Positions 6,403 to 64,000 of a stretch of 64,000 nt of DNA are shown here, piece after piece. The translations under genes were made by a program, and so were the position numbers. This DNA comes from an uncultured Myxococcales bacterium. GTDB taxonomy: Bacteria > Myxococcota_A > UBA9042. The stretch lies in NCBI GenBank assembly GCA_903883645.1, contig CAISBR010000182.1, positions 1 through 64,000 of the forward strand, given 5' to 3'. Each line of letters opens with the position of its first letter. Position 1 is the stretch's first letter. Under the pieces are notes generated by a model, which saw only the letters and a program-made list of their open reading frames with translations, ran no database searches and was not told the DNA's origin.

Positions 6403-7341
6403 CTACAGCTGCGGGCAGAAGTTCTTGTCGCAGCCAGGGCCGGTCTTGGTGCTTTCGTCTTTGGTGCAGACCTGGCAGTAGTACGCGCAGGGCAGCACGT
6501 CGTAGTTGCCAACGGCGCACGGCGCTTGGAACTCCTTGGCTACCTCCATCGTCGAGCACTGCTGCCACTGCTCTTCGGGCGAGACATTGGGGTTGCCGGG
6601 CACCGACAGCAGGCAGCCCCAGCACACATCGACGGGGTACTCCATCGTGCCCGACACCACGGCGCCGCCGGCGGCGGTCTTGCCCTGCAGCTGGAACTTG
6701 AGCACCACCCGCTCAACAGTGCGGGCGCGGTCGGTGAACTGGAAGAAGCGCTGCTGCCACTCGGCGCCAATCGGCTTGCCCGGCGCGGCGAAATCGGGAA
6801 CAAGTTCCATGCCCACCAAGCCCTTGCTGAGCGGCCCAATCGATGCCACCACGGGCACATCCCACGAGGCGATGTTTTGACCGGTCAGCGTCTTGTTGAC
6901 CTTGACGTCCTTGTTCAGAATCGAAAACGGCGAGGTCAGCTTGGTCGACGGCGAGCGCACCATGTCGACGTGCACGCTGGTGATGTTGACCGTATTCGGA
7001 TCGAGGCGCAGCGACGCCGGGCCCGAGCCGTTGATCAGTTGCAGCGACGGCAAGTTGTTCTTGACCGATGCGACGAACTTGAACCTGCGCGACAACGCGA
7101 CGTCCATCACGCCTTCGAGGTAGAAGTTCTGGCCGCCCGAGTACGTGCACTGCAAAATGCCGTTTACAAGGGTCGCTTGCGGCACCACATTGCCTTCTAC
7201 GGCGAGAGATTCGTTGTTGTAAGCCGGGGCGCAGCCCAAGCCTGCGGTCGCAAGGCCGATGGCGGTCAGGCCCATGCACACGCGGTGCACAGCGCGCGTC
7301 GTGCTCGCTCCACCCAGGAGTCTGGCGCTATTAGTCTGCAT
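6403..7341 (-). CDS. Putative lipoprotein, unknown function
   Basis: Start at 7341 (MQTNSARLLGG...TAGLGCAP) with GAGG RBS; overlaps the 3' end of aroKB by 11 bp. Confidence 0.65.
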   Translation of the reverse strand: MQTNSARLLGGASTTRAVHRVCMGLTAIGLATAGLGCAPAYNNESLAVEGNVVPQATLVNGILQCTYSGGQNFYLEGVMDVALSRRFKFVASVKNNLPSLQLINGSGPASLRLDPNTVNITSVHVDMVRSPSTKLTSPFSILNKDVKVNKTLTGQNIASWDVPVVASIGPLSKGLVGMELVPDFAAPGKPIGAEWQQRFFQFTDRARTVERVVLKFQLQGKTAAGGAVVSGTMEYPVDVCWGCLLSVPGNPNVSPEEQWQQCSTMEVAKEFQAPCAVGNYDVLPCAYYCQVCTKDESTKTGPGCDKNFCPQL

Positions 7342-9031
7342 TCTTGCCTCCTCGCTGCTGCGCGAACCCACCCAGCTGCGGCGACGATGCGGCCGGCAGG
7401 GTAGTTCGGACATTGGTCGGCGCCGTTGCGCCCAGTTCGGCCAAGCGGGTTTGCCATGCTGCTGCGTCGACCGCCAGCAGTTCAGCTTGCCCGACGCCAC
7501 GGAGTTGGGGCAACCAAAGCTGCTGCCCGCGGCGCTTCTTGTCGCTCACGATGCGGGCCAGCGTTGCCGCTGTGGCCCATCGTTCCCATTGCGTATCAAA
7601 ACCAAGTGCTTCAAGGCCCAGCCGCACGGCTTGCGCGGTACCTGTAGCCGCCACACCCGTGCTCTCGGCGGCTTCCGCTTCGGCCACCAGTCCCAGGGCT
7701 ACGGCCTCGCCGTGGAGCACTGCAAACTTGCTCTGGGCCTCGATGGCGTGGCCCAGCGTGTGGCCCAGGTTGAGCAGCGCCCGCGCCGAAGCGTGGCCCG
7801 GCCCTTGGCGTTCGAGTGGGTCGGCCGCTACCACCGCTGCCTTGTGGCGCACAGCCGCCCGCAGATGGGGCAGCAGGGCCGCCAGCGAGCGGCGCCGCAG
7901 CGCAGGGCCATCGGCCAGCAGCGCGCGCCACGCACCGGCGTCAAAGCTGACGAAAATTTTGGCAATCTCGGCCAGACCCGCGCGAAATTGCCGCGCCGGC
8001 AGCGTCTGCAGCACCTGCAGCGGCAGCCACACCCACTCGGGGCGGTGGAAGGCGCCGACCAGGTTCTTGCCCTCGGGGGTGTCGATGGCGGTCTTGGCCC
8101 CCACCGACGCGTCGGCCATAGCCAAAACTGTAGTAGGAATAAGGGCTGTGCGCATGCCGCGCTGCCACGTCGCCGCGCAGAAGCCCGCCACATCGGTGGT
8201 CGCGCCGCCGCCAATTGCCACCAGCAAGTCGCTGCGACCCACGCCCGCCGCAGCCAGCGCCGACCAGATGCGGCTCGCGGTGCGCAGATCCTTAGACTTT
8301 TCGCCGCCTGCCACGTCGATGGTCGTCAAGTCGACGCCTCGGGCTTTCAGCATCTCGACCAGTGGTTGCGCCCACTGCGCCACGCCGCGATCGATCACCA
8401 GAGCTATCTTGCTTCCCGCCGCCAGGGCGACCAGGGCCTCGACCGCTTGGGCCGGCGCGCCGCCGTGCAGCCACACCGGATGGGTCGCGCTAGCCAGATC
8501 GTCACTCAGCAGCGACTCGGCGGGATCGAGGGCGCACAACACCGCATTGACTACGTTATTCAGCGGTTGCGAGGCATCCACATGCACATGGGCCTGGGCA
8601 TAGGTCGCTCGCCGCCGCAACTCCAGGTCGACCAACGCCGCCTTGGCGCTCTGGCGCGTGTCACCCAGCAGGGGCCGATCGGTGTCGTCGAGCAGGGCCC
8701 GTTCGCTCAGGACCTCGACCGGCGCATCGAGCCACACCACCTGGGCCTTGGCACGCATCCGCTCGATACCATTGTGGAAACACGGAGCGCCGCCGCCCAC
8801 GGCAATCACCGTCGGCGGGCCGGACAGCACCTGCTCGAGCAGGGCCGCCTCGTGAATGCGAAACACCGTCTCGCCTTCGCGCCGCAGCAGCTCGGCCGCC
8901 GACCGACCATTCTCGGCCTGCAGCAAGGCATCGAGATCCAGGCACGGCAGGGCCACGCGCTCGGCCACTCGGGCCGCGACGACGGTCTTTCCTGCTGCGG
9001 GCATGCCAATGATCACGATGCTTTGCCTCAC
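7331..9031 (-). CDS. aroKB: Bifunctional shikimate kinase / 3-dehydroquinate synthase
   Basis: N-terminal P-loop GMPAAGKT plus IAVGGGAPCF (shikimate kinase); C-terminal GGEKSKDLRT, AIGGGATTDVAGFCAATWQRG, TVLAMADASVGAKTAID, LLNLGHTLGHAIE (AroB). Confidence 0.93.
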   Translation of the reverse strand: MRQSIVIIGMPAAGKTVVAARVAERVALPCLDLDALLQAENGRSAAELLRREGETVFRIHEAALLEQVLSGPPTVIAVGGGAPCFHNGIERMRAKAQVVWLDAPVEVLSERALLDDTDRPLLGDTRQSAKAALVDLELRRRATYAQAHVHVDASQPLNNVVNAVLCALDPAESLLSDDLASATHPVWLHGGAPAQAVEALVALAAGSKIALVIDRGVAQWAQPLVEMLKARGVDLTTIDVAGGEKSKDLRTASRIWSALAAAGVGRSDLLVAIGGGATTDVAGFCAATWQRGMRTALIPTTVLAMADASVGAKTAIDTPEGKNLVGAFHRPEWVWLPLQVLQTLPARQFRAGLAEIAKIFVSFDAGAWRALLADGPALRRRSLAALLPHLRAAVRHKAAVVAADPLERQGPGHASARALLNLGHTLGHAIEAQSKFAVLHGEAVALGLVAEAEAAESTGVAATGTAQAVRLGLEALGFDTQWERWATAATLARIVSDKKRRGQQLWLPQLRGVGQAELLAVDAAAWQTRLAELGATAPTNVRTTLPAASSPQLGGFAQQRGGKNAD

Positions 9032-9048: not shown

Positions 9049-12000
9049 CTACTTGCCCACCGTCAGCGACGAGGAGCGGTTGACGATGCGCGGCGTGATG
9101 AAGATCAAGAGCTCGGTGCGCTTGTCTTCTTCGCGGCGGGTGCGGAACATCGCGCCAATCAGCGGAATGTCGCCAAAGAAAGGCACCTTCTTGGTCGACA
9201 GCGAGGTGTTGCGGGTATAGATACCGCCGATCACCGTAGTCTCGCCGTCGCCCAGCAAGAGCTCAGTATTCGCCTCGCGTTGCGTAATGGTCGGATTGCC
9301 GTCGGCCGCGCGGTTGCTGAAGTCGGGCTCGTTCTTGGTCACGTTCACGGCCAGCTTGACGTTGCCGTCTTGCGTGATGTGCGGCGTAGCCGAGAGCTTG
9401 AGGTCGGCGCTAAAGAAGCGGGTCTGCACGCCTTGCGCCGAAACCACTGAGATTGGAATCGAAATGCCTTGCTTAATGGTCGCCTGGTAGTTGTCGAGCG
9501 TCAGCACCTTGGGGCTCGAGACGATCTTGACCACGCCCTCTTGCTCTGCGGCCGATAGACGCAAGCTCAAGTTGCCAGCGCCGCCTAGCGAACCCAACGT
9601 CAGGCCGATCGCACCACCGGCACCGGTACCCACCGCGGCCGGCAGATTGACCGCGTAGTTTGGAATCGCCGACGACACGCCGTCTTTGTTCGGACCCTGA
9701 CCGTCCGCGCCGCCGCCCACGCCCACTACGCTGGGGAAGGGCAGGCCCGTCTCGTTGCCGTACACCGAGCTCATGGCGTAGTTACCGCCCCACTGGATAC
9801 CCACTTCTTTGCTGAACGCCGAGCTGGCTTCGACCACGCGGGCCTCGATCAGCACCTGCGGCGTCTGCCCGTCGAGCTTGCGGACCATTTCTTCAACAGC
9901 CGCCACGTGATCCTCGGTGTCGGTCACCACCAGCGAGTTGGTGCGCGCGTCCATCGTGACCGAGCCCTTCTTGCTCAGCACCACCTTGGCTTGCGGCACC
10001 AGTTGCTCGGCCTGCGCGTAGTTCACCGGGATGATGCGCACGACCAACTGCTTGACTTCTTCTAGCTTTTGCCGGCGCTCGACCTCTTGGTCAAACTCCT
10101 TCTTCAGCGAGTCGATGGTCGCGACGCGGATCACGCCGGCCTGGCGCACGTAGTCGTAGCCGCGAGCGCGCAAGATGACGTCGAGCGCCAAGTCCCACGG
10201 AATATTCTCTAGGTGGAACGTGACCTTACCTTGGACTTCGGGCCCGGCAATGATGTTCAGCTTGCCTTCTTTGGCCAAGAACGTCAGTACGTGCTGGATA
10301 TCCGCGTCTTTGATGGTCAAATTGATGCGCTTGCCGGTGTAGCGGCGGTTCTTGCGCCACGGCGTCTTGATCTCGCCGCCCATCTCGCCGCCACCGGCAC
10401 CACCGCCACCGCCAGCATCCTCAGGCGCCATAAGGGGTTGCGGAGCAGCTGCCAGCACATCGCCGCCCGACTTGACCGCCCGCGACACACCCTTGGGACC
10501 ATCGGCCACTTCTTGGCGTTCAGCGCCCTCTAAACGGTCGAAATCCCAAGTCAACTGCCCATCGCGCAGCGACACGCGGTCCGCGGCGCGCTCGGTCAGA
10601 TCGACCACCACCCGCACTTCGTCTTGCGACCCCTCGGGGCGGAATACGGTGACGCGCTCGATCGGACCCTGCAGCGACTTGGTGTCGTAGGCGCGTTGCA
10701 GATGCTCGGGCAGGCGCACGCCGTGCACCGCGAGCACCACCCGGTTGGGCTGGCGACTCACCACTTCGGCGCGGGCTAGCTCAGAGCCGCCACCCAGAGC
10801 CAGTTCTACGTGGCCGCGGCGACGCCCTTCGGCGGTAATGTGCACATCGTCGACCCGGCCGAACTCGTCGCCCTTCGTCGTGCGCTCGTTGCGAGCCTTC
10901 TGGCGCTCTTGCTCGGCCTCGCGCCGCAACGCTTGGGCTTGCGCCGTGGCCTGCTCCGCGGCCTGGTCGGCATTGCGGCGCTGCTCCACGTTCTGCGCAT
11001 CGCGGCGGGCACGCTGCAACTCGTCGGCCAGCTTCTGCTTTTCGGCACGCTCGGCAGCCAAGCGCTGCTCTTGATCGACGATGCGGCGCTCGGCGTCGGC
11101 GGTCTGGCGCCCTTCGGCCTCGCGTTCTTGGCGCTCGCGTTCGGCGCGGGCTTCGAGCACAGCGATACGAGCCTGCTGGCGCTGCACATAGTCGCCGCCA
11201 CCCTTGCCCGTAGTGGCCGCGGCTTCGGCCTGCTTGCGCCGGCTCTGCTCGGCTGCCAGCTGCGTCTGCAGATCCTGCTCGCGCTGTACGTACTTCTCTT
11301 CTAGAGCCTTTTCGCGGGCTTGATGCTCGGCCTGCAGCTGCGCCCGCACGGTCGCCAGTTCGCGCTCAATGCGCTCTTGGGTGCGTTTCTGCTGATCGGC
11401 TGCAGTTTTTTCGGCCAGAGCCACCTTGGCACGCACGTCGTCGACGGCTTTTTCGGCGGCGGCAATGCGGGCACGCGACGAGGCGCGGTCACTGCGCATG
11501 GCCTCGAGCTCACCTTCGCGGGCTTGCAGGTTGCGCGACAGATCACCCATCTTGTCTTCGGCTTGCCGGCGCGCCGCTTGCTCGCGCTCGGCCTCGCGGC
11601 GCGCTGCAGCTACTGCCAAGTCGCGGTCGTGCAGCGCTTTCTTGGCACTGTCGGCGTCTTTGCTCAGGCGCTGCGTCTCGCGCTGCGCAGCCTGCACCTC
11701 TTGGTGCCGCCCCGCCGCCGCCGCGGCCTGTTCGCGCCGCTTCGACTCGCCGAGCGCGCGATTCAGGGCATCGATACGCTCCTGAGTCTTCGCCTGCAGG
11801 TTGTGCAATTCGTCTTCGCGTTGCTGCAGCAGCCCTTGCACAGCCTCGGCCTGCTTGTTTGCTGCCACCGCTTTTTGCGATTCTTTGGCGCGAGCTGCTT
11901 CTTTTTCGCGCAGTTGCTCTTCGTACGAACTGCTCAGCGCCTGCTCGCGCCGCGCCAACTCGGCCTTCAACTCAACGCGCACTTGCGCCACGCGGTCTTC

Positions 12001-15000
12001 GGCGTCGCGCTCCATCTTGCGCACATCGGCGTCGCGGGCGGCCATAGCGGCATCGTGTTGCTTGCGCAGCGTGGCGACCTGGGCCTCGGCCTGGGCGACC
12101 ATCTTGCTTTTGTCTTGGCCACCGGCACGCAGCTTTTGTAGCTCGGCCTCGCGACCGGCCAGGGCTTGCTGCAGGCGCTGAGCCTCTTGCTCCGCGGCGG
12201 CGCGGGCTTCAGCCTGCCGCTTTGACTCGCCCACCGCACTCTGCAGCGCCGTTTCGCGCGTCTTCAGGTCTTTTTGCAGTGAACCAAGCGCCGACTCAAG
12301 GCTTTTTCGCTCTTCTTTGGCCTTATCGACCTCGACAGCCCTGCCCTTGGTCTGGGCCTCGCGCTCGCGCTGGCTGGCCTCGTCAAGCTGGGCTTCTAGA
12401 GCCGCTTGGCGCACTTGCATCTCGTCGTGCAGGCGCTGCAGCTCTTGCTCGCGATCCTTTAGCAAACCTTCAACGCGGGCGGCACGCTCTTGGGCCTGCC
12501 GCGCCTGCTCGCCGCGCTCGCTTTGCACGCGGGCCAGCTCGCGGCCGTGGGCTTGCTCCAGCTCCTTGCGCATGGCAACCAAGCGACTATCAAACTGATC
12601 CGCCATGGCTTTTTCGCGGCGGGCCTGGTCGTCTTGCTGGGTCTGCAACCGCTGTCGCGCTTCGGCCACGGCCCGTTGAGCGCCGACAAGTTCGTCTGCT
12701 TTCGCCGACTTGCGCGTCTTCATGCTGCCCAACTCGTGCTCGCGATCGGCCAGAGCCTTTTGCAGGCGCACGGCTTCTTGCTCGGCCTTGTCGCGGGCTT
12801 CAGCTTGTTGCTTGGCATCGCGGCGGGCGGCGGCCACGGCATCCGCTTGGCTCTGCAAGTCTTTGCGCAGCTGGCCTTGCGCGGCCTCGAGTCGCTGGCG
12901 CTCCTGGCGGGCACTCTCTTGATCGGCAAGCCGACCCTCGCGCAGCGCCTTGTCTTCGGCCGCCTTGACCTCGCGCATCTGCGCGGCCAGCTTGTCTTCG
13001 CGCTCGCGCACCGACGCCTTTAGCCCGGCCACTTCGCGTTCACGTTCTGCTAGTTGCTGCTCTACGCCTTGGGCGCGCTGGGCTGCGGCGGTCTTTTCGC
13101 GCTCCAGACTGGCCACGGTCTCGCGGGCCTTCTCAGCGTCGGCAGCCTTCTGGCGCTCCAGACTGGCCACGGTCTCGCGGGCCTTCTCAGCATCGGCCGC
13201 TTTCTGACGCTCTAAATCAGCCATAGCTGCGCGGGCTTTCTCGGCATCGGCCGTTTTTTGCCGCTCTAGATCGGCCATTGCCGCCTTGGCGTGCTGCAGC
13301 TCCGCCTGCGACGAGGCCAACTCCGCCCGCACACCCTGCAACTGCCCCTGCAGCTTTGTTTGCAGTTCAGCGACTTGACGATCCTGGCCGGCCTGCTGCG
13401 CCGTCAGCTGCTGCCGAGCCTTTTGCACTTCGGCCTGAGCAGCGGCGATTTCTTGGTTCGAGGTTGCCTTGCCCTTCGCCAGCTCGGTCAGCGCAGCTTC
13501 GCGTTCTGCCAGAGTATTGCGCAGTTTCTGGGCCTCGGCCTCGGCTTGCACGCGCGCCTTGCTATTGCGCTCCGCTTCGCCGCGGGCGGTGGCCAGTTCG
13601 CGGTCACGTCCGGCCAATTCCTTAGCGATTTCGACCTGTTTAGTCTCAATTTCACTGCGAGCGCGTTGGGCCGCCGCCACTTCGCCTTGCTTGCCCGCGC
13701 GCTTCGCCTCTTCTTCGCGCGCCTTGGCTTGGCTCAACTCTGCACTCAGGTTGGCTTCGCGGTCCTTCAGCGCCGTGCGCAGGTTCTGCAACTCGCGCTC
13801 GCGCTGGACCAGCAGGTCTTGCACCTGCGCCGCACGCTGGGCCGCCGCGGCATTCTCGCGCTGTAGCTCGGCTTTTTCGGCCTTCAGATCGGCCAACTGC
13901 GCCTGTGCCGCGGCCAAATCCTTTTGCACACCTTGCAGCTGACCCTGCAGTTTTTGCTGCAGCGCCGCCAACTGGGCATCGCGCTCGGCTTCTTGGTCGC
14001 GCAACTTGACGCGAGCCGCCGCCACTTCGGCTTCGGCCTTGGCAATTTGCTGCCGGCTCGCCGCCGAACCCTGGCCCAAGGACTGCAGCGCCGCCTCGCG
14101 CTCGGCCAGCGCGGTCTTCAGCTTCTGATTCTCAACCTCGGCTTGGCGCCGCGCTTGGCTCGTCTTGTCCACTTCGCGGCGGGCAGCCTGCAACTCGTCG
14201 TCGCGGCGAGCTAATTCGCGAGCAGCATCCGCCTGACGGCGCTCGATGTCGGCGCGGGACTGGCGCGCCGCCTCGACCTCGGCCTGCTTACCAGCGCGCT
14301 GTGCAGATTGTTCGCGGCGGCGGGCCTCGGCCAGCTCGGTTTGCAGTCCCGACTCCTTGTTCTTGAGCGTCGACCGCAGATTCTGTAGCTCGCGCTCGCG
14401 CTGGGCCAGCAGATCTTGCACCTGTTCGGCACGCGCCGCCGCGGCGGCTTTCTGGCGTTCCAAATCCGCGTTTTGCTTCTTCAGACCGGCGACTTCGGCC
14501 TGTGCCGAGGCCAAATCCTTCTTGACGTCGGCCAGTTGCCCCTGCAACTTTTGCTGCATGGCCTGCAATTGCCGGTCGCGCTCCGCAGCCTGCGCACTCA
14601 GTTGGGCGCGCGCCGCCGCCACTTGGGCCTGAGCCTGTTGAATTTGCTGGGCACTCGCATCCTTGCCCTTGGCCAGCGCCTGCAGCGCCGCTTCGCGCTC
14701 GGCGAGCACACTGCGCAACCGCTCGGCTTCGAGTTCGGCCTGCTTGCGCGCCAGGGCATTGCGCTCAACGTCTTGGCGAGCCGCGGCCAAGTCGGCATCG
14801 CGCTTCGCTAATTCCTTGCTCAATTCGGCTTGACGGGCGCGAATGGTCTCTTGCGCCTGTTGTGCCGCCGCGACTTCCGCCGCCTTGCCGCTTTGCTTGG
14901 CTTGGGCTTCCAGCGACTTGGCCTCGGCCAGTTCGGCAGCCAGCGAAGTCTCGCGATTCTTCAACGCGGCCTGCAGGTTTTGCAGTTCGCGCTCGCGCTG

Positions 15001-16344
15001 AGTCAACAGATCTTGCACTTGGCCAGCGCGCTCGGCAGCCAAAGCTTTTTCGTGCTCAAGATCCGCCTTTTGCTTTTCTAGACCAGCCACTTTGGCTTGG
15101 CTGGCCGCCAGCTTGCGCTCGCTCTCGGCCGCCCGCTCTTCGGCCTGCCGCCACTTGCGCTCGGCCTGCTCGCGCTCGTAGTCGACCTTCTTGGCCTTCT
15201 CTAAGGCGTTCTCGGTGTCTATCAGCCGGCCGCGCGCCGCGGTCAGCTCGCCCGCCAGTTGCTCTTGCTTGCGCTTGGCCTCGGCATCCGAACTGCTGCG
15301 TGCCGCCTGCAGATCCTTGTCTTTTTCGGCCAGGATCTTCTTTAGGTGCTCGACTTCTTCGGCCTGCGCTTGCCGCCGCGACTCGCTGGCCCGCCGCATC
15401 TCGTCGCGCAACTGCTCGGCCTGCTGTTTGGCCCTTTCGAGCTCGCCTTGCAGCACCGCCAGCCGCTCGTCGCGCGCCGTACCCTCTTGCTTTTGCAGAG
15501 CCGCGATCTGCTGACGCAGCAACTCAACGCGCGCTTCTTCCGATTGCCGCTGGGCCACCACCGCTTGCAGCGAGGCGCGCTCTTTGTTCAGTTCGGCGCG
15601 CAGCGTGTCGGCGGCCTTTTGCTCCGTTGCCAACCGCGCCGCCGCCGCTTGGGCGGCCTGTTCTGCTTCGGCCAAGCGCTTTTTCAGGCTCTCTTGGCCC
15701 TGCAAGTCGGTCTTGGCGCGCGCCAGCTCGTCGGCTAGGCGGTTGCGCTCGTTCTGCGCCTGCTTGCTGTCTAGCGCGGCCTGCTCCTCGCGTGCGCGGG
15801 TGGCGCGCAGCTCGTCGCCCAGCTGCTTTTCGCGCGCGGCGGCGGTCTTTACGGCCTGTTCGTTGGCCGCTACCTGTGCGGTCTGCGCTTGGTTCAGCTT
15901 GCGATCGCTACCGTCGACCACCACCACCACAGTGTTGCCGTCCGCCCGCACGTGATAGAGGGCGTCTTGCTCAAATGTAACGACAATTCGACCAACCGGC
16001 GCGCCCGACTTCTTGGTCGCCTGCACTTCGATCGACCGCACCACGCCGTTGCCCACGTACTTGGGCGCTTCGAGCCCCTGCACGTCGCTGCCGGCCACGT
16101 CGATGAACAGCCGCGACGGCTTGTCGAGCCGGAAGGTCGTAAACGTGGGCGCAGCCACACCGCGCACGGTAATTACCGTGGTTTGCGTGGCTTCTTGCAC
16201 GTCGATGGCCGTTAGGGCGTTGCTCGCCTGGCCTTGGCCCTCGGCCGCGAACAGGGGCGTCGCGGGCAGGACCATGGTCGTCGACAAGAACAAGCCCATC
16301 GACGAGCGCAGCAGCCGCTTGGCCATCGTTTGCTTGGTTCTCAT
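9049..16344 (-). CDS. pilQ: Type IV pilus secretin PilQ with very large coiled-coil insertion
   Basis: Signal peptide; N-terminal AMIN-like segment (VRGVAAPTFTTFRLDKPSRLFIDVAG); ~1650 aa of Ala/Gln/Glu/Arg coiled coil; second AMIN-like segment; STN/secretin N domain (INLTIKDADIQHVLTFLAKEG); secretin core (VLIEARVVEASSAFSKEVGIQWGG...ELLIFITPRIV). Last gene of pilMNOPQ. Confidence 0.95.
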   Translation of the reverse strand: MRTKQTMAKRLLRSSMGLFLSTTMVLPATPLFAAEGQGQASNALTAIDVQEATQTTVITVRGVAAPTFTTFRLDKPSRLFIDVAGSDVQGLEAPKYVGNGVVRSIEVQATKKSGAPVGRIVVTFEQDALYHVRADGNTVVVVVDGSDRKLNQAQTAQVAANEQAVKTAAAREKQLGDELRATRAREEQAALDSKQAQNERNRLADELARAKTDLQGQESLKKRLAEAEQAAQAAAARLATEQKAADTLRAELNKERASLQAVVAQRQSEEARVELLRQQIAALQKQEGTARDERLAVLQGELERAKQQAEQLRDEMRRASESRRQAQAEEVEHLKKILAEKDKDLQAARSSSDAEAKRKQEQLAGELTAARGRLIDTENALEKAKKVDYEREQAERKWRQAEERAAESERKLAASQAKVAGLEKQKADLEHEKALAAERAGQVQDLLTQRERELQNLQAALKNRETSLAAELAEAKSLEAQAKQSGKAAEVAAAQQAQETIRARQAELSKELAKRDADLAAARQDVERNALARKQAELEAERLRSVLAEREAALQALAKGKDASAQQIQQAQAQVAAARAQLSAQAAERDRQLQAMQQKLQGQLADVKKDLASAQAEVAGLKKQNADLERQKAAAAARAEQVQDLLAQRERELQNLRSTLKNKESGLQTELAEARRREQSAQRAGKQAEVEAARQSRADIERRQADAARELARRDDELQAARREVDKTSQARRQAEVENQKLKTALAEREAALQSLGQGSAASRQQIAKAEAEVAAARVKLRDQEAERDAQLAALQQKLQGQLQGVQKDLAAAQAQLADLKAEKAELQRENAAAAQRAAQVQDLLVQRERELQNLRTALKDREANLSAELSQAKAREEEAKRAGKQGEVAAAQRARSEIETKQVEIAKELAGRDRELATARGEAERNSKARVQAEAEAQKLRNTLAEREAALTELAKGKATSNQEIAAAQAEVQKARQQLTAQQAGQDRQVAELQTKLQGQLQGVRAELASSQAELQHAKAAMADLERQKTADAEKARAAMADLERQKAADAEKARETVASLERQKAADAEKARETVASLEREKTAAAQRAQGVEQQLAEREREVAGLKASVREREDKLAAQMREVKAAEDKALREGRLADQESARQERQRLEAAQGQLRKDLQSQADAVAAARRDAKQQAEARDKAEQEAVRLQKALADREHELGSMKTRKSAKADELVGAQRAVAEARQRLQTQQDDQARREKAMADQFDSRLVAMRKELEQAHGRELARVQSERGEQARQAQERAARVEGLLKDREQELQRLHDEMQVRQAALEAQLDEASQREREAQTKGRAVEVDKAKEERKSLESALGSLQKDLKTRETALQSAVGESKRQAEARAAAEQEAQRLQQALAGREAELQKLRAGGQDKSKMVAQAEAQVATLRKQHDAAMAARDADVRKMERDAEDRVAQVRVELKAELARREQALSSSYEEQLREKEAARAKESQKAVAANKQAEAVQGLLQQREDELHNLQAKTQERIDALNRALGESKRREQAAAAAGRHQEVQAAQRETQRLSKDADSAKKALHDRDLAVAAARREAEREQAARRQAEDKMGDLSRNLQAREGELEAMRSDRASSRARIAAAEKAVDDVRAKVALAEKTAADQQKRTQERIERELATVRAQLQAEHQAREKALEEKYVQREQDLQTQLAAEQSRRKQAEAAATTGKGGGDYVQRQQARIAVLEARAERERQEREAEGRQTADAERRIVDQEQRLAAERAEKQKLADELQRARRDAQNVEQRRNADQAAEQATAQAQALRREAEQERQKARNERTTKGDEFGRVDDVHITAEGRRRGHVELALGGGSELARAEVVSRQPNRVVLAVHGVRLPEHLQRAYDTKSLQGPIERVTVFRPEGSQDEVRVVVDLTERAADRVSLRDGQLTWDFDRLEGAERQEVADGPKGVSRAVKSGGDVLAAAPQPLMAPEDAGGGGGAGGGEMGGEIKTPWRKNRRYTGKRINLTIKDADIQHVLTFLAKEGKLNIIAGPEVQGKVTFHLENIPWDLALDVILRARGYDYVRQAGVIRVATIDSLKKEFDQEVERRQKLEEVKQLVVRIIPVNYAQAEQLVPQAKVVLSKKGSVTMDARTNSLVVTDTEDHVAAVEEMVRKLDGQTPQVLIEARVVEASSAFSKEVGIQWGGNYAMSSVYGNETGLPFPSVVGVGGGADGQGPNKDGVSSAIPNYAVNLPAAVGTGAGGAIGLTLGSLGGAGNLSLRLSAAEQEGVVKIVSSPKVLTLDNYQATIKQGISIPISVVSAQGVQTRFFSADLKLSATPHITQDGNVKLAVNVTKNEPDFSNRAADGNPTITQREANTELLLGDGETTVIGGIYTRNTSLSTKKVPFFGDIPLIGAMFRTRREEDKRTELLIFITPRIVNRSSSLTVGK
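11830..15018 (-). repeat. Six diverged ~197-253-aa repeats in the PilQ coiled coil
   Basis: Anchor motif RAxQVQDLLxQRERELQNL and derivatives (VEQQL, VEGLL, VQGLL) at 15007, 14410, 13813, 13054, 12463, 11830; spacings 199, 199, 253, 197, 211 codons. Confidence 0.8.
13099..13314 (-). repeat. Four 54-bp tandem repeats (18-aa unit) within pilQ
   Basis: GCGCTCCAGACTGGCCACGGTCTCGCGGGCCTTCTCAGC at 13099 and 13153, diverged copies at 13207 and 13261; exact 54-bp period. Confidence 0.9.
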
Positions 16345-16404: not shown

Positions 16405-17079
16405 TCAGGGTACATCACCAAGTTCTTCAGCACCGGGATCGCCCACCGAAATGGGCGGCGCCAGCGACAGGGTCAGCGGTTTCTCTTTGCCGGGCACCGA
16501 GACGATCACCTTGTATTGGGTAATCGCGGTCACGCGCGCACCGTCGTTGCCTAGGGCATCGCCGCGCACCACGTCGCAGCGCCCGCCGTCGGGGTCCGTA
16601 AATACGGCCTTGGGTTGCGCCACGCCCGTCATGATCATGAACAGGGTGTAGCGCTCGATCGGCCCCTTGGTCGCGCAGGTATCGGGCAGGTCGGCGGGCC
16701 GCTCGTCGGTGCCGCCATTTTCTTCGACCACGGCCTGCTCGGGCACCTTGGGCCACTCGACTACCTTGGTAGTGTTGTCGAGCGACCAGTTCACCACGCC
16801 GTCGATCGGCTCCTTGGTGTAGTGATCGAACAGGCCCTTGATCGGCCTCCACTTCGCGTTTTCGCCCAGCACCACGTAGCCATCGACCAGCCCGCCACCC
16901 GCCTTGGCCGCGTCACCGCCCGCCAGCTGGTTTAGCGCCTGCTCGGCGTTCTTGGGCGGCGGCTTCTTGGTCTCGCCACCGCCGCCACCGCCGCAGGCCG
17001 CTTGGCTGAGCACGGCGAGCGCCAGCAGCGCGTGAGTCGCTAGCTTTAGCAAATTGTTCAGGACGGCTGATTGCAGCAT
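16405..17079 (-). CDS. pilP: Type IV pilus assembly lipoprotein PilP
   Basis: Lipobox SQAACGGG; position between pilO and pilQ; start overlaps pilO stop (TGATG). Confidence 0.85.
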   Translation of the reverse strand: MLQSAVLNNLLKLATHALLALAVLSQAACGGGGGGETKKPPPKNAEQALNQLAGGDAAKAGGGLVDGYVVLGENAKWRPIKGLFDHYTKEPIDGVVNWSLDNTTKVVEWPKVPEQAVVEENGGTDERPADLPDTCATKGPIERYTLFMIMTGVAQPKAVFTDPDGGRCDVVRGDALGNDGARVTAITQYKVIVSVPGKEKPLTLSLAPPISVGDPGAEELGDVP

Positions 17080-17825
17080 CAGGTCCTCTTCTTCTTCGGC
17101 TTGTCGCGCCGAGCCATGCCTTCTTTGAGCTCGGCGGGTTTGCCCGTCCAGACAAAGGCGTAGGCGGTAAAGGTCGCCCGAATCGTGGTGCGGTCGCGCG
17201 ACATGTCGGCCAGCTCAAATTTCTCGTACAGGGCCGCTTCGGGGCTTTTGTTGGTCTCGTGCTTCTTCTCGCCTTCGACCGGCTTGTGCGCGGCATCGTA
17301 GGCAGTGCGGATCAGGCCGGCGTCGGGCACCAGTGTCTCGATCGTCAGCCCGCGGATGTTGATTAGACGTCGCCCCATGCCTGCATACAAGCGCAAGAAT
17401 TCGATGAGTTGCTGCACCGAGCCTTCCAGCGTCACCTTGATCGGGATGGCGTTGTACAGGTCCTCGCTCTCTTCTTGCAGACGATCGAAGCGCTTGATCA
17501 TCAAGTGGATGTTAGCCGCATCGGCCTGCACCGCATCGATGAACTTGGGGATCTCGTCGGCAGACGGGAAGCCGGCGCGACGCTTCTTGTCTTCTTCGAC
17601 CAGCTCGTCTTTTTCTTTGCGCAGCTTGTCAGCGGCTTCGGCGCTGGCCGAGCTCTTGAGCGTCTTGACGTCGTTGTCGAGCTTCTTGAGCTGGGCGCGC
17701 GCCTGATCGGCCTTGCCAAGCTCGGGATCGACCAGGCCAAAGTACAGGCCCAGCGCCAAAACCACCAAGATGCCCGCGAACACCGCTGCCTTCTGGGCGG
17801 GCGGCAGCTTCATGAATTGGTCCAT
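17079..17825 (-). CDS. pilO: Type IV pilus inner-membrane protein PilO
   Basis: N-terminal TM (AVFAGILVVLALGLYFGLV), coiled coil, PilO-like C-domain; operon position. Confidence 0.9.
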   Translation of the reverse strand: MDQFMKLPPAQKAAVFAGILVVLALGLYFGLVDPELGKADQARAQLKKLDNDVKTLKSSASAEAADKLRKEKDELVEEDKKRRAGFPSADEIPKFIDAVQADAANIHLMIKRFDRLQEESEDLYNAIPIKVTLEGSVQQLIEFLRLYAGMGRRLINIRGLTIETLVPDAGLIRTAYDAAHKPVEGEKKHETNKSPEAALYEKFELADMSRDRTTIRATFTAYAFVWTGKPAELKEGMARRDKPKKKRT

Positions 17826-17843: not shown

Positions 17844-18917
17844 TTATTCGGCCGCCGGCATTTTGTCGGCCGGTGCAGCTGCTGGTGGGGGTTCGGCGGC
17901 CTGATGGGCTCCGGGCATCGGAGCTTTGCCGTCGTCTTTGGGCAAGTCGCTGCCCGCTTCGGCCTTGGCCGGTTCCGCCTTGGCGGGCTCGGGCTTCGGG
18001 GCTGGGCGAACGTCTTCGGCACTAGCGTCGGTCGCCGAGCCCTTCGCGTTATTATCACCTTGAGTATCGGGCGCTTGCTCGCTATCGTCGGCCGCATCGC
18101 CGGTTGCAGCGCCGGGCAGCGGCAGGGCCAGCTTGGTGCCAATCACGGCCGCGTCGTCGCCCGCCGAGCCACCCGTATCGGCGCCAGCATCGGTCGAACC
18201 CGCATCCGCTCCGGCTGCCGCTGCGGCTTTGTCGTCCGGCTTTTCTGGATTCACCGGCTCAATCAAGTAAATCAATGTGGCCCGAATCGAGAATTCGACA
18301 TACGTCATGCCGATTTGCTCGTCGCGCTTCTTCTCTTGGTACACCAGCTTCGGCTCGCGGAAGTACGGGCTCGACTCCAAGCGCCACTGCAGCTCGGCGA
18401 CGTCTTCGTGCCCCAGCGCCCGGCCTTGGATCGTCACTTCGCCACCATTTTCGTGGTACGAGGTGATCCAAGCGCGGCGTGCATCCCAGCCCACATGCCA
18501 GCCCGCCGCCTCGAACGCGACCAAATCGGCCGTCGGCGTCTCGTGCTGCTGGCGCGGTTGCAAGATGAACGAGAAGTACTGCAACGCCCCGGCCGGGCCG
18601 TCTTTTTCGGCAAAGAGCTCATCGAGCACCGTTTTTTGCTCGCGGAGCTTCTTGATCTCTTCGGTCGCCTGGGCGATCACCTTCTTGTTTTCTTCAAGCT
18701 TTGTCAGTTCAAGCTTGCGCCGTTCGAGCTGTGACTTGGCGCGCGTGGCCTCTTCTGAGGCGGTGTTCATCCACATGTAGAACACAGCCGCTTCCATCAC
18801 GACGAAAAGCACGAACAGCAAGATGCCGACGTTGGGGATGTCGGGCAGGCGCAAGCCCGCTCCGCCCTTACGACTTTTTTGGCCGGCGCCGCCGCCGATC
18901 AGGTTGATGCGAATCAT
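17844..18917 (-). CDS. pilN: Type IV pilus assembly protein PilN with long acidic/Ala-Pro C-terminal extension
   Basis: MIRINLI start typical of PilN, single TM, coiled coil, operon position. Confidence 0.9.
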   Translation of the reverse strand: MIRINLIGGGAGQKSRKGGAGLRLPDIPNVGILLFVLFVVMEAAVFYMWMNTASEEATRAKSQLERRKLELTKLEENKKVIAQATEEIKKLREQKTVLDELFAEKDGPAGALQYFSFILQPRQQHETPTADLVAFEAAGWHVGWDARRAWITSYHENGGEVTIQGRALGHEDVAELQWRLESSPYFREPKLVYQEKKRDEQIGMTYVEFSIRATLIYLIEPVNPEKPDDKAAAAAGADAGSTDAGADTGGSAGDDAAVIGTKLALPLPGAATGDAADDSEQAPDTQGDNNAKGSATDASAEDVRPAPKPEPAKAEPAKAEAGSDLPKDDGKAPMPGAHQAAEPPPAAAPADKMPAAE

Positions 18918-18925
18918 AGTTGCAC

Positions 18926-19981
18926 CTACCGATCTCCCAGCCGGCGCATCGCCAGACCCACCGCCACACCCGCCACGGGCGCCATGCGCTGCAGCATCTG
19001 GGCGTCAAACTTCTTGGGATCGACGACGACGTTGTTGAAAGGATTGAGCGCCCGCACCGTTGTGCCCAGGCGACGTTCGATACCCTCGATGAGGCCCGCT
19101 TGCACCGCTGCGCCGCCACACAAGTAGATCGCGGCGATGTCAGAATTCATTGCGGTGGCCGCAAAAAAGTCGAGCGAGCGCTGGATCTCGTTGATGAGCA
19201 CTTCAGACACGCGACCCGAGATGCGCTGCACTTCGCGCAACACACCCGACATCGACAGCGTAGTCTCTGAAGTGGTCTTCATGTGCTCCGCTTCTTCCCA
19301 CGGCACAGCGAATTGTTTGGCAATTTCGTCTGTGAGCAAATTGCCGCCTACGGTGATGTCGCGGGTGAACGAGGTGGTGCCGTCACTGACGACGTTGATA
19401 TTGATCGTCGAGGCGCCCACGTTAACGAGTGCGACGGTCTCATGGGTCGGAACAGCGAAGTTCAACTCGAAGGCATTGTAGAGCGCAAAACAATCGACGT
19501 CGACCACAACCGGCTCAAGCTTGCAGGCCCGCACCACGTCGAGCATCTCTTCGATCACCGCCTTCTTGGCCGCTACAAGCAGCACATCCATCTGGCCTTG
19601 GCCGGCATGGGGGTTGATGATCTGGTAATCGACGTTTACATCTTTGATATCAAAGGGAATGTACTGCTCCGCTTCCCACTGAATCTGCTCGTTGAGCTCG
19701 TCTGCGGTCATCTCGGGCAGCGAGATCTTCTTGATGATCACCGAGTGACCCGACAGGGACACGGCCACGCGGCGCTCGCGCACTTTGTTCGCCGCAAACA
19801 ACTCGCCGACCCGCTGGGCCAGCAGAGGCGCGTTGAGAATGACCCCGTCTTTGATGGTGTCGGGCGGCAGCATCATGGTGTCAAATGCGAGCAATTGCGC
19901 ACCCTTCGACGTCTCTTTGACGTGGGCGAGCTTGATCGACGACGAGCCTATGTCCAAGCCGACGGCATTTCTGGTCGCCAT
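18926..19981 (-). CDS. pilM: Type IV pilus assembly ATPase-like protein PilM
   Basis: VGLDIGSSSIKLAHVKE actin-like fold motif; AAGGAG RBS ahead of ATG at 19981. Confidence 0.93.
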   Translation of the reverse strand: MATRNAVGLDIGSSSIKLAHVKETSKGAQLLAFDTMMLPPDTIKDGVILNAPLLAQRVGELFAANKVRERRVAVSLSGHSVIIKKISLPEMTADELNEQIQWEAEQYIPFDIKDVNVDYQIINPHAGQGQMDVLLVAAKKAVIEEMLDVVRACKLEPVVVDVDCFALYNAFELNFAVPTHETVALVNVGASTININVVSDGTTSFTRDITVGGNLLTDEIAKQFAVPWEEAEHMKTTSETTLSMSGVLREVQRISGRVSEVLINEIQRSLDFFAATAMNSDIAAIYLCGGAAVQAGLIEGIERRLGTTVRALNPFNNVVVDPKKFDAQMLQRMAPVAGVAVGLAMRRLGDR

Positions 19982-20306
19982 GCTCGCGCTGCTCCTTCGC
20001 AGGCCGTTGCGGCCCAAACCCAGCTAGGCATCAGGTATGCCTTGGCTGTTTGAGGTGTGGCGCGCCCAAGCCCACCACACTCCAAGGGGCAAGGCTAGAA
20101 GGGGTGGCGCAAGCCGTCAAGAAAAGGGCCAGAACAGACGGCGTGGGCATCGCAAATCGGTGCGGTGTGGGCACCTTGCGCGGCGATGTGTGCAAATCAC
20201 TTGTGCTTGTCCGATCTTCCACGAAGTCGTGACGCCGCCAATCGACCTCTTATGGCAGGTGCCGCGGCGGCGCGCTATGCTACTCGCCCGGCGCCGGTGC
20301 GCGCCG

Positions 20307-43065: not shown

Positions 43066-46000
43066 ATGGCACGCTACAACCTAAGTTCTATAAATCCGAT
43101 TTGTGTCAAAGGGTTGATCGGTCGCTGGCTGCTCGTGGCCGTCGTGCCGTTGGCGCTGGCGAGCGGGTGCGGCGGCGACCAGACCGTCTCTGGCACGGCA
43201 GGAACCACGGACGTGTCGAGCGATGTGGACGCCTCCCTACTCGGCGACGCTGCCGATGTGCTCGAGGGAACCGACGCATCTACCATCGACCTGGGCGGCA
43301 GCGATGCTTCATCGGTATGCCCCGGCGGTGCAGGCTGTACCTGCGGTCAGGCCAACCAATGCGACTCGGGCTATTGCATCCCCACCGCTAAGGGCCAAGT
43401 CTGCGCCAAGAAATGCGAAATCAGCGACTGCCCCGCCGACCAGAAGTGCGTGCAGGCCGGCGGCGCGGACCTCATCAACATCTGCGTACCCAAGACGCCG
43501 TTCCTGTGCGATCCGTGCTCGGCCAACAGCCAGTGCCAAAATCAGGCCAACCCCGACGCCAAGTGTGTCGACTCCGGCGCCGGCGGCAGCTATTGCGGCA
43601 CCGCCTGTTCGGCCGAGTCAGACTGCCTAGATGGTTATACTTGTTCTGAGATCAAGGATGTAACGGGCACGCCCGGCAAGCAGTGCGTTCCGAAGGGCAC
43701 GGCCTGCGGTTGCAGCGAGTACGCGATTGCCCAGCAACTCTCGACCAAGTGCTATGTGCCCACTGGCGACGGCAAGTGCGAGGGCAAGCGGACTTGCCTG
43801 CCTGCCGGCGCCACTGGCGCCCCTACCGGCGGCGGACTCAGCGCGTGCATGGCCGGCGACCCCAAGCCCGAGGTCTGCGACGGATCGGACAACGACTGCG
43901 ACGGCCAGACCGACGAAGGCACCTGCGGCGACAGCAATCCTTGCACGGACGACAAGTGCGGCGGCGCCGTGGGCTGCAGCAATCCCAACAACACCCTAGA
44001 GTGCGATGCCGACGGCTCCGTCTGCACGGCGATCGACAAGTGCGCCGACGGCAAGTGCATCCCCGGCGCCGCGCCCGACTGCGACGACAAGAATCCTTGT
44101 ACCAAAGATACTTGTGATGCCAAGCTGGGTTGCCAGCACAGCCCCGACGACGGTGCCTCGTGCAATGCGGACGACAACCCCTGCACCCAGGGCGACGCCT
44201 GCAAGGCCAGCAAGTGCGAAGCCGGCGCGCCCAAGGCGTGCGCCAACGACGACCCCTGCCTGGTGGGCAAGTGCGGAATCGCCGACGGCATCTGCAAGTA
44301 CACGTTCCAAGAGGCTAGCCCGTGCAACGACGGCAATCCGTGCACCGACCAAGAGACTTGCCAGACCGACACTTGCAAAGGCAAAGCGGCTACCTGCGAC
44401 GACGCCAACGCCTGCACTTCGGATAGCTGCGACCCCAAGACGGGCTGCGCCCACGCCGGGGTCAGCGGCGGCTGCGACGACGGCAACAAGTGCACGGACA
44501 AAGACGCCTGCGCCGACAGCAAGTGCGTGGGCATCGCGCTCGACGTCACGGGCACTTGCGACGACAAGAATCCATGCACGCAAGAGGGTTGCGACCCGCT
44601 CAAGGGCTGCACCGCCACCCCCAGCACCGGCGGCACCTGCGACGACGGCAACCCGTGCACCGAGGGCGACACCTGCAAAGACGGCAAGTGCGCGTCCGAC
44701 GTCAATAACTGCGCCTGTCAGGCCGATGCCGACTGCGTCGCGCAAGAAGATGGCAACGCTTGCAACGGCACGCTTTTCTGTGACAAATCGGCCCAGCCGT
44801 TCAACTGCAAGGTCAAGGACTCGACCATCATCAAGTGCGATATCACCTTGAACAGCGCGTGCCAGACCAACACCTGCGACGCGGCCACCGGCAAGTGCGC
44901 CCTGCAAAAGAAGCCCGACAACCTGTCGTGCAACGCCGACGACAACATCTGCACTTTGGGCGACGTCTGCAAAGCCGGCACCTGCACCCCCGGCGCGGTA
45001 CAGACCTGCGACGATAAGAACCCATGTACCGACGACGTTTGCGACCCCAAAGAGGGTTGCCAGTTCAAGCCGAACACCGCGCCGTGCAACGCCGACGACA
45101 ACAGCTGCACCGAAAACGACGCCTGCCAGCAAGGCGCTTGCGTGGCCGGCAAGACCAAGTCGTGCGACTCGGGCGACGCCTGCATCGTGGGCAAGTGCTC
45201 GGTGCTCAGCGGAGCCTGCACTTACAATCCCAACGACGGCGCACCCTGCAACGATGCCAACGCCTGCACCATCGGCGACACCTGTGCCAAAGACCTGTGC
45301 AAGGGCTCAGCCGCTAGCTGCGACGATGGCAACGTTTGTACGGCTGATTCATGCGTACCCTCAACAGGTTGTGTTCATGCGCCCGCCGCCGGCAGCTGCG
45401 ACGACGGCGACGCTTGCACGGCCGGCGACACCTGTGCGGGCAGCAAGTGCGTCGGCACGCCGATCGACGTGGCGAAGATCTGCGACGACAGCAACGTCTG
45501 CAGTACCGACAGCTGCGACCCCAAGGTTGGCTGCGCCCACGCCGACGTCAGCGGCAACTGCGACGACGGCAACGCCTGCACCACTGGCGACGCCTGCGCC
45601 GGCGGCAAGTGTGTCTCGGGCACTACCACCTGCAGCTGCCAGAAAGACGCAGACTGCCCTGATAACGGCAATTTGTGCGACGGCGCCCCGTTCTGCGACA
45701 AGTCGGCGATGCCGTTTACGTGCAAGACCAACCCGGTCACCATCACCGTCTGCACCGACCCGGCCGACCCGCAGTGCGCCCAGGTGGCCTGCGAAAAAAC
45801 CACGGGCAAGTGCGTGACCACAAACGCCAGCGACGGCACACTTTGCGACGCCGACAAGAGCGCCTGCACCGCGCCCGACAAGTGCAGTGGCGGCGTGTGC
45901 GCCAAGGGGCCCACGGTCGACTGCGACGACAAGAACCCCTGCACGACAGATAGTTGCGACCCCGGCTCGGGCTGCAAGCACAGCAACAATACCGACCCCT

Positions 46001-46686
46001 GCGACGCCGACGGCAACGCCTGCACCAAGAACGATGTGTGCGCTTCGGGCTCGTGCACGCCGGGCCCTTTGCAGAAGTGCGACGACAACGAGCCTTGCAC
46101 CCAAGACAGCTGCAATCCCGCGGACGGCAAGTGCATCTACAAGCCCATTGCGACCACCTGCTCCGACAACAATATCTGCACGGTGGGCGACACCTGCGGC
46201 ACCGACCCCAGCTCGCAGGCCTACACCTGCCTGCCCGGCAAGACTGTCAGCTGCGACGATAATAACCCTTGCACCATCAACACTTGCGACAAGGACAAGG
46301 GCTGCCAGTACCCCGTTGACCAGACCGCGACCGTCACCTGCTACGACGGCGCCAACGGCACCTTGGGCAAAGGCGTCTGCAAGTCGGGCAAGAAGACCTG
46401 CGACGCCAGCGGCAACCTAAGCGCGTGCACCGGCCAAGTCATTCCCGCTACTAAGGAATTGTGCAACAGCCTCGACGACACCTGCGACGGCACCACCGAC
46501 GAAGGCTGCGCACCGACCTCGTTCGTCGCCCGCGTCGGCAACGCTACGCTCACCGGCACCAGTGGCAACCTGACCGCCCGCATCGGCGTAGGCTTGTCGC
46601 AGGCCTCGGGCACCGCCTCTGGCAGCGGCTCGGTCAGCGCCAACGTGGGCTTCTACGCCTGGATTCGCAAGATCATCGGCCTGTAG
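43066..46686 (+). CDS. Cys-rich repeat lipoprotein (CDDxNPCTxDxCDxxxGC repeats)
   Basis: LALASGCGG lipobox; at least 20 repeats of CDDxNxCTxxxxC; flanking MopE-like motifs CDGSDNDCDGQTDEGTC and CDGTTDEGC; C-terminal GFYAWIRKIIGL*. Confidence 0.85.
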   Translation: MARYNLSSINPICVKGLIGRWLLVAVVPLALASGCGGDQTVSGTAGTTDVSSDVDASLLGDAADVLEGTDASTIDLGGSDASSVCPGGAGCTCGQANQCDSGYCIPTAKGQVCAKKCEISDCPADQKCVQAGGADLINICVPKTPFLCDPCSANSQCQNQANPDAKCVDSGAGGSYCGTACSAESDCLDGYTCSEIKDVTGTPGKQCVPKGTACGCSEYAIAQQLSTKCYVPTGDGKCEGKRTCLPAGATGAPTGGGLSACMAGDPKPEVCDGSDNDCDGQTDEGTCGDSNPCTDDKCGGAVGCSNPNNTLECDADGSVCTAIDKCADGKCIPGAAPDCDDKNPCTKDTCDAKLGCQHSPDDGASCNADDNPCTQGDACKASKCEAGAPKACANDDPCLVGKCGIADGICKYTFQEASPCNDGNPCTDQETCQTDTCKGKAATCDDANACTSDSCDPKTGCAHAGVSGGCDDGNKCTDKDACADSKCVGIALDVTGTCDDKNPCTQEGCDPLKGCTATPSTGGTCDDGNPCTEGDTCKDGKCASDVNNCACQADADCVAQEDGNACNGTLFCDKSAQPFNCKVKDSTIIKCDITLNSACQTNTCDAATGKCALQKKPDNLSCNADDNICTLGDVCKAGTCTPGAVQTCDDKNPCTDDVCDPKEGCQFKPNTAPCNADDNSCTENDACQQGACVAGKTKSCDSGDACIVGKCSVLSGACTYNPNDGAPCNDANACTIGDTCAKDLCKGSAASCDDGNVCTADSCVPSTGCVHAPAAGSCDDGDACTAGDTCAGSKCVGTPIDVAKICDDSNVCSTDSCDPKVGCAHADVSGNCDDGNACTTGDACAGGKCVSGTTTCSCQKDADCPDNGNLCDGAPFCDKSAMPFTCKTNPVTITVCTDPADPQCAQVACEKTTGKCVTTNASDGTLCDADKSACTAPDKCSGGVCAKGPTVDCDDKNPCTTDSCDPGSGCKHSNNTDPCDADGNACTKNDVCASGSCTPGPLQKCDDNEPCTQDSCNPADGKCIYKPIATTCSDNNICTVGDTCGTDPSSQAYTCLPGKTVSCDDNNPCTINTCDKDKGCQYPVDQTATVTCYDGANGTLGKGVCKSGKKTCDASGNLSACTGQVIPATKELCNSLDDTCDGTTDEGCAPTSFVARVGNATLTGTSGNLTARIGVGLSQASGTASGSGSVSANVGFYAWIRKIIGL
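43930..46330 (+). repeat. Coding tandem repeats, ~25-45 aa Cys-rich units
   Basis: Reiterated tgcgacgacaagaaYCCYTGYACC-like DNA encoding CDDKNPCT...; seen directly. Confidence 0.85.
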
Positions 46687-63353: not shown

Positions 63354-63437
63354 GAACGGGCTCCTTGCGCAGGACATGATGGGTGCGCCCCACCAACTCG
63401 GTGCCACGACTGCGGTGCGGCCGAGCCTGATCTGTCT

Positions 63438-63466
63438 AGCATACCAACGTGCGGCCCGGCTGCCAA
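63438..63466 (-). promoter_or_regulatory. Candidate sigma-70 promoter for the MopE-type gene
   Basis: Reverse strand TTGGCA (63466-63461) - 17 bp - TATGCT (63443-63438), ~80 bp upstream of start. Confidence 0.5.
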
Positions 63467-63505
63467 AGGGTCTAAGGGCAAAAATGCGCGACGCTGGTGC
63501 GCGAC

Positions 63506-64000
63506 TTAGGGAGTGAGCCCTGGGCACAAGGCTGTCCAACTTGGGTCGTTTGCGGGGCTTGCCGGCCAGCTGCTGCACCAATCGGTCCGCCACTGCGGCC
63601 CAGCCATTCGTGCCGTTTGTTCGACCATGGGCTGCAGTTGCCCGGCCGCCGTGGCAAGCGCGAGCCGAATCTCCTCTTGCCCGCCCGCCAGCACGTCGGC
63701 CAAGTTGTTGCGCAGTGCGGTGGTGCGCAGCTCAACGAGGCCCTGCGGGTCGCCAATATCGCTTGGATCAAGGTGGATACGCGGTGCATCGCGGCGTGTC
63801 AGCATCACGACTGCCGCTCGGCGCAGCAGCCGATTGTCGGACTGCACCGCCAAACGCTGCAGGATAGCGGTCGCCCGCTGCAACCCCGACGCCCGGAGCG
63901 CCCACACCACCGCCAAATGGCGCGGCACATCTACGCTTCCCCACAGCAGCCGCTCCCCCCGTTCGAGCAACAACGCCCGGGCCGGCGCCAAGCTTGGGTC
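63506..64000 (-). CDS. Hypothetical helical protein (possible HEAT-like), truncated by right window edge
   Basis: Frame open to the window edge; Leu/Ala-rich helical pattern; only C-terminal part visible. Confidence 0.5.
   Translation of the reverse strand, partial: DPSLAPARALLLERGERLLWGSVDVPRHLAVVWALRASGLQRATAILQRLAVQSDNRLLRRAAVVMLTRRDAPRIHLDPSDIGDPQGLVELRTTALRNNLADVLAGGQEEIRLALATAAGQLQPMVEQTARMAGPQWRTDWCSSWPASPANDPSWTALCPGLTP

Follow-up and report, generated by a model that had tools for sequence, protein, structure and literature searches.

A giant PilQ secretin of Myxococcota with a tandem-repeat helical insert between its two AMIN domains

The usual picture of a secretin is a compact ring with short tails that bind peptidoglycan. 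What, then, is to be made of a secretin gene whose product carries about 1,680 residues between two AMIN domains? The gene lies in a 64,000-nucleotide stretch of DNA from an uncultured Myxococcales bacterium (contig CAISBR010000182.1, positions 1 to 64,000; hereafter the window), and it raises the questions of whether the protein is a genuine PilQ, how its insert is folded and what such an insert might do.

The list of open reading frames (ORFs) and the PilQ model TIGR02515 place pilQ, encoding a giant type IVa pilus secretin of 2,431 aa, at 9049..16344 on the minus strand, as are all features described below unless noted. The gene is one unbroken frame of 2,431 codons from an ATG, with an AGGAG Shine-Dalgarno sequence close 5' of the start. 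TIGR02515 scores 413.8 bits (cut-off 284.35) over residues 2004-2422, and Pfam matches follow in the order STN/N0 (PF07660, E 1e-6), Secretin_N (PF03958, E 1.5e-14) and Secretin (PF00263, E 7e-48). AMIN exceeds its cut-off twice, at 15922-16209 and 10588-10818, both N-terminal to N0, and a scan of the genome with the AMIN profile returned exactly two matches, both within this protein; the genome's other secretin genes sit on other contigs. Moreover, pilQ is the final gene of pilMNOPQ, its coding strand continuous with pilM (18926..20017, profile matches), pilN (17844..18917, Pfam), pilO (17079..17825, Pfam; 248 aa) and pilP (16405..17079; 224 aa), and an aroK-aroB fusion (7331..9031, Pfam; shikimate kinase and 3-dehydroquinate synthase in a single ORF) adjoins it directly downstream. 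PilM, PilN and PilO pass their Pfam cut-offs, and PilP was assigned from operon position together with a weak match to PF04351 below its cut-off; PilO and PilP are of ordinary size, and the pilMNOP arrangement upstream of pilQ is kept in relatives. The TIGR02515 match, the order of the secretin domains, the position of AMIN before N0 and pilMNOP upstream in the operon firmly identify the protein as a PilQ. A sequence-only reading of the window had proposed this identity, two AMIN domains with a coil between them, and a single frame free of stops or frameshifts, all of which are borne out here.

Several neighboring features are also recorded. PilN has an ordinary core followed by a low-complexity C-terminal tail of ~130 aa, rich in Ala, Asp and Pro; PilN is 340-390 aa long in family members, compared to ~220-270 aa in other families. 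Elsewhere in the window, a 2,444-aa ORF (56259-63593, minus strand) matches Cu-binding_MopE motifs in 20 stretches and contains long tandem arrays of 190/390 bp, two large ORFs on the plus strand (43066-46686 and 47246-50023) contain multiple Dicty_CTDC Cys-rich repeats, and a 711-aa ORF (51588-53723, plus strand) matches the fibrillar collagen C-terminal domain (E 6e-11), which is unusual in bacteria.

The PilQ protein begins with a predicted signal peptide (residues ~1-34; 16243..16344), read from its basic N-region, hydrophobic core and AxA-like end, followed by AMIN1 (residues ~37-150; 15895..16236), delimited by the AMIN profile and domain mapping. The inter-AMIN insert then extends over residues 151-1826. 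Beyond it lie AMIN2 (residues ~1827-1935; 10540..10866; Pfam and AMIN profile), which is a beta-sandwich in an AlphaFold2 (AF2) model, and N0/STN (residues 2011-2074; 10123..10314; Pfam and AF2), preceded by a disordered Gly-rich linker. Secretin_N (N1; residues 2102-2163; 9856..10041; Pfam) and the secretin barrel domain (residues 2265-2421; 9082..9552; Pfam and a secretin scan) complete the protein, which is without any Cys. The insert is composed of 22% A, 13% E, 13% Q, 12% R and 9.5% L. The longest proline-free run of the protein, 1,749 residues, starts at residue 117, and the large hydrophobic residues of the insert are spaced ~3.5-3.6 residues apart (~3.56), as in coiled coils. Together with the helix predicted for the modelled parts, these properties are those of a coiled-coil or alpha-helical region.

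Comparison of the protein with itself revealed an internal period, with identity reaching 24% at a lag of 199 residues and 21% at 398 (mean 12%, SD 1.3%), and alignment resolved six tandem repeats of ~199 aa. These follow an N-terminal coil in which no repeat is recognisable (residues 151-415; 15100..15894), delimited by composition and the repeat alignment. R1 (residues 416-614; 14503..15099; invariant Gly486) is defined by repeat alignment and Gly conservation; R2 (residues 615-813; 13906..14502; Gly685) and R3 (residues 814-1006; 13327..13905; Gly884) by these and AF2; and R4 (residues 1066-1263; 12556..13149; Gly1137), R5 (residues 1264-1474; 11923..12555; Gly1334) and R6 (residues 1475-1667; 11344..11922; Gly1545) by repeat alignment and AF2, the named glycine being invariant in each case. 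Between R3 and R4, repeat spacing and tandem-repeat finding (TRF) place an extra segment of ~54 aa (13150..13326) made of 18-aa sub-repeats, encoded by a 54-bp tandem array at 13100-13278, which lengthens one long helix. After R6 and a Gly-rich break comes a block found by family comparison, DYxxRQQARIAVLExRAERERQ (DYVQRQQARIAVLEARAERERQ; residues ~1718-1739; 11128..11193), that is nearly invariant across the family, absent elsewhere and far better conserved family-wide than the 199-aa repeats. A search of the genome found no copy of the 199-aa repeat outside PilQ, and an HMM of the window's repeat did not find it in other families of the class. The weak matches of the repeat profile to Sec2, to GreA/Gfh1 hairpins and to lamins were rejected as generic coiled-coil similarity rather than homology. 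The repeat architecture is firm. The insert had previously been described as an uninterrupted coiled coil, and while the lack of proline and the coil periodicity agree with that description, it overlooked the repeat structure and its regular predicted turns.

AF2 modelling of two consecutive repeats, using 35 homologous pairs, gave a mean pLDDT of 90.3, a value to be read with the caution that coiled-coil models are readily over-confident. Helices were predicted at residues 2-70, 73-144, 150-269, 272-343 and 349-391 of the model, that is, 72-residue helices at 73-144 and 272-343 on either side of a 120-residue helix at 150-269. A further model, covering residues 1060-2100 and built with 13 orthologues, was weaker overall (pLDDT 74.6, pTM 0.31) and placed the breaks of R4-R6 at the same positions, with a 72-residue short helix in each of the three units and long helices of 118 and 134 residues; C-terminally it showed a final pair of helices, then the beta-sandwich of AMIN2, a disordered linker of ~60 residues and N0. 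Both models are of monomers, without PAE, and are compatible with antiparallel packing either within or between chains. Sequence conservation, a line of evidence separate from AF2, was assessed in 87 repeats, not independent of one another, from 17 PilQ sequences (16 relatives and the window). The glycine at the first helix break occurs in 86 of 86 repeats, and in 84 of 86 it lies at a constant ~70-71 residues from a conserved Leu (column 141); insertions concentrate at positions 145-148, which correspond to the second break. Because the modelled breaks coincide with the invariant glycine and the indel hotspot, the insert is likely a zigzag of antiparallel helices with a spectrin- or BAR-like topology, rather than a 240-nm rod, and in the simplest reading of the models the long helix is common to two neighboring units, as in spectrin. 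These predicted turns, two per 199-aa repeat and present in every modelled repeat, support the earlier argument that the insert must fold back and speak against the single extended helix of ~240 nm from which that argument started. If the helices are collinear and antiparallel, Gly486 to Gly1545 would span ~45 nm (666 residues forward and 360 back, 0.149 nm each). By estimates from helix lengths, not coordinates, an ordinary folded unit would measure ~7 nm and the whole insert at most ~113 nm if its flanks are straight, compared to ~248 nm as one extended helix. A Foldseek search of the PDB gave no significant match for the coil, the nearest helical structures being BAR domains, with three antiparallel helices, and coiled-coil proteins of axonemal doublets.

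We also asked whether this architecture extends beyond the window. PilQ is present in 32 of the 36 nearest genomes, with frames uncut by contig ends ranging from 1,156 to 2,830 aa. Genomes of the same genus and family share the window's fused frame, and among the family's full-length PilQs, whose frames span 2,100-2,830 aa, the repeat profile detects 4, 5, 6 or 7 units per protein. The last three units align position by position across species. Of five species compared, four have exactly 600 aa in this segment, and the remaining one has 599 aa. N-terminal units are often more alike within one species, as in one relative in which R1-R3 are 74-79% identical to one another. These patterns indicate that the array extends by duplication near its AMIN1 side. 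The insert is under purifying selection: among close relatives, dN/dS is 0.08-0.13 in the last three repeats, compared to 0.06-0.08 in the secretin domain. An assembly artefact or gene fusion is ruled out, since the frame recurs in independent metagenome-assembled genomes (MAGs) of the family, and purifying selection on the insert argues likewise. Nothing indicated separate translation of coil and secretin: there is one Shine-Dalgarno-preceded start and no stop, and the frame is fused in all relatives with long enough contigs.

Proteins of the order AMIN, coil, AMIN, for which the earlier reading had advised a search, recur across the phylum by domain mapping, with coils of 250-1,900 aa: 250-500 residues in a family with single-contig genomes that is probably Bradymonadia, 370-740 in other families and as many as ~1,900 in that of the window. 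Long inserts are retained in nearly all full-length PilQs of the window's class. Outside that class, PilQ frames among the matches listed in 284 genomes of the phylum range from ~440 to 1,560 aa. Inter-AMIN linkers are only ~10-40 residues in large myxobacterial genomes, Thermodesulfobacteriota and Proteobacteria. Two further phyla, entered via Thermodesulfobacteriota and Chromatiaceae loci, have PilQ in 71 of 99 and 62 of 100 genomes with longest frames of 1,047 and 1,027 aa, so that none of their 133 PilQ-bearing genomes has a PilQ above 1,050 aa. The open-licence literature that we searched contains no description of such a PilQ; the architecture was in this sense not already well described, although it is itself widespread in the phylum. 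The coils of several other families of the class have tandem periods of their own (50/100/206 aa in L038, 94 in L048, 210 in L061 and 21/42 in L090), and these unrelated periods suggest that the coil was elongated repeatedly and independently. As a separate observation, a MAG labelled, doubtfully, as Akkermansia (L117; CAMAWP010000030.1, G287:C30) has a secretin ORF of ~3,800 aa whose N-terminal part reads mostly as many tandem Secretin_N-like domains, which would make it giant by repetition of ring domains and not by coiled coil.

What might such an arm do? AMIN domains of Myxococcus xanthus PilQ, which sit on flexible linkers, are thought to bind septal and polar peptidoglycan and are required for polar recruitment and multimerization (PMC10653833). 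By homology, AMIN1 of the window's PilQ may bind peptidoglycan too. Given the flexible linker between AMIN2 and N0 and the ordinary lengths of PilN, PilO and PilP, the insert is unlikely to set the spacing between inner and outer membrane, which speaks against an axial form of the periplasmic spacer entertained earlier; it would instead move AMIN1 away. Our preferred reading, to which we give about an even chance, is that the insert is a giant folded leash that holds AMIN1 on peptidoglycan far from the pore and shares load. The linker between two peptidoglycan-binding AMIN domains would have grown into a folded helical arm of tandem ~199-aa units, each contributing one ~120-residue and one 72-residue helix, with AMIN2 near the ring on a flexible linker and AMIN1 carried to the far end. 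Known PilQ rings have 12-15 subunits; assuming that number here, 12-15 arms may extend along the cell wall and fasten the ring to a broad area of peptidoglycan, sharing, and perhaps cushioning, the pull of pilus retraction. Type IV pili retract with forces above 100 pN, and tens of pN suffice to unfold spectrin repeats, so that elastic buffering is physically plausible. We raise tentatively, as a possibility that is rather doubtful, that the array is a spectrin-like elastic force buffer as well as a length module, with 12-15 springs radiating from secretin to peptidoglycan; each unit would contribute ~7 nm folded and more by unfolding or sliding under retraction, and copy number would be tuned by lineage.

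The main rival to a tether is that the insert serves mainly localization or assembly and not force, either by letting AMIN1 reach septal or polar peptidoglycan within a wider capture radius or as a hub where envelope partners dock. The dependence of polar recruitment on AMIN domains in M. xanthus (PMC10653833) favors this, as does the family-wide conservation of the block at the coil end, much stronger than that of the repeats, which would make the block the obvious candidate for a binding site. However, this explanation leaves the multiplication of near-constant 199-aa folded units to 4-7 copies unaccounted for, and we consider it unlikely. Less probable still is that the arms bundle around the secretin and AMIN rings as a cage or collar that stiffens a tall periplasmic vestibule. 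Long helices bundle readily, and a ring with 12-15 helical arms of ~180 kDa would have much mass concentrated in one place, but PilM, PilN, PilO and PilP are of normal size, the disordered segment of ~60 residues between AMIN2 and N0 would uncouple arm from ring, and a closed cage would poorly tolerate a copy number that varies freely among close relatives. It is also improbable, and slightly more so, that the array is largely neutral tandem duplication in a tolerant linker whose length is not needed. The lineage-specific amplification of R1-R3, the unrelated repeats of different lengths in other families and the 18-aa tandem array would all fit such a history; a dN/dS of ~0.1, the fixed length of the last three repeats, the invariant glycine with its constant 72-residue helix, and the retention of long inserts by almost every full-length PilQ of the class, with none in the two other phyla, would not. 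Finally, a single helix or parallel coiled coil extended throughout (~240 nm contour) and lying along the envelope, which the proline-free run and hydrophobic periodicity might suggest, is highly improbable given the turns predicted at the invariant glycine and indel hotspot, grounds on which we reject a continuous single helix.

These results imply that a class of Myxococcota builds PilQ with an inter-AMIN arm several-fold heavier than the pore, the number of repeats varying by species. If the arm acts as a tether, with the lateral spread, anchoring and force-sharing that we infer, it would bear on how hard-pulling pilus machines are anchored without tearing the envelope. Annotation pipelines may split such PilQs or discard them as SMC-like coiled coils.

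Among known systems, spectrin repeats and BAR domains resemble the predicted zigzag, with a long helix common to adjacent units, as an analogy of topology only; the window's unit is twice as long, there is no significant structural match, and the spectrin family is absent from the Pfam matches up to E 1. SlpA of Deinococcus radiodurans connects the outer membrane, in which it resides, to peptidoglycan, which it likewise binds through an N-terminal domain carried on a long coiled-coil arm (PMC9388160). It differs in having a trimeric parallel coiled coil of ~28 nm, an SLH domain and a porin-type barrel, with no secretin and no 199-aa repeats, whereas the window's protein has AMIN and secretin domains. 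The PilQ of M. xanthus shares with it a secretin domain, N0/N1, several peptidoglycan-binding AMIN domains and the pilMNOPQ order, and at 901 aa is exceeded ~2.7 times in size by the window's PilQ. Its AMIN domains are on flexible linkers (PMC10653833), in contrast with ~1,680 residues of helical repeat between those of the window. The Bradymonadia-like PilQs (L125, L127 and others, from single-contig genomes; the class name is inferred) have the same order of AMIN, coil, AMIN and secretin but coils of only ~250-500 residues in proteins of 1,012-1,226 aa. Together with the series of 4 to 7 units, these shorter coils provide a ready comparative system.
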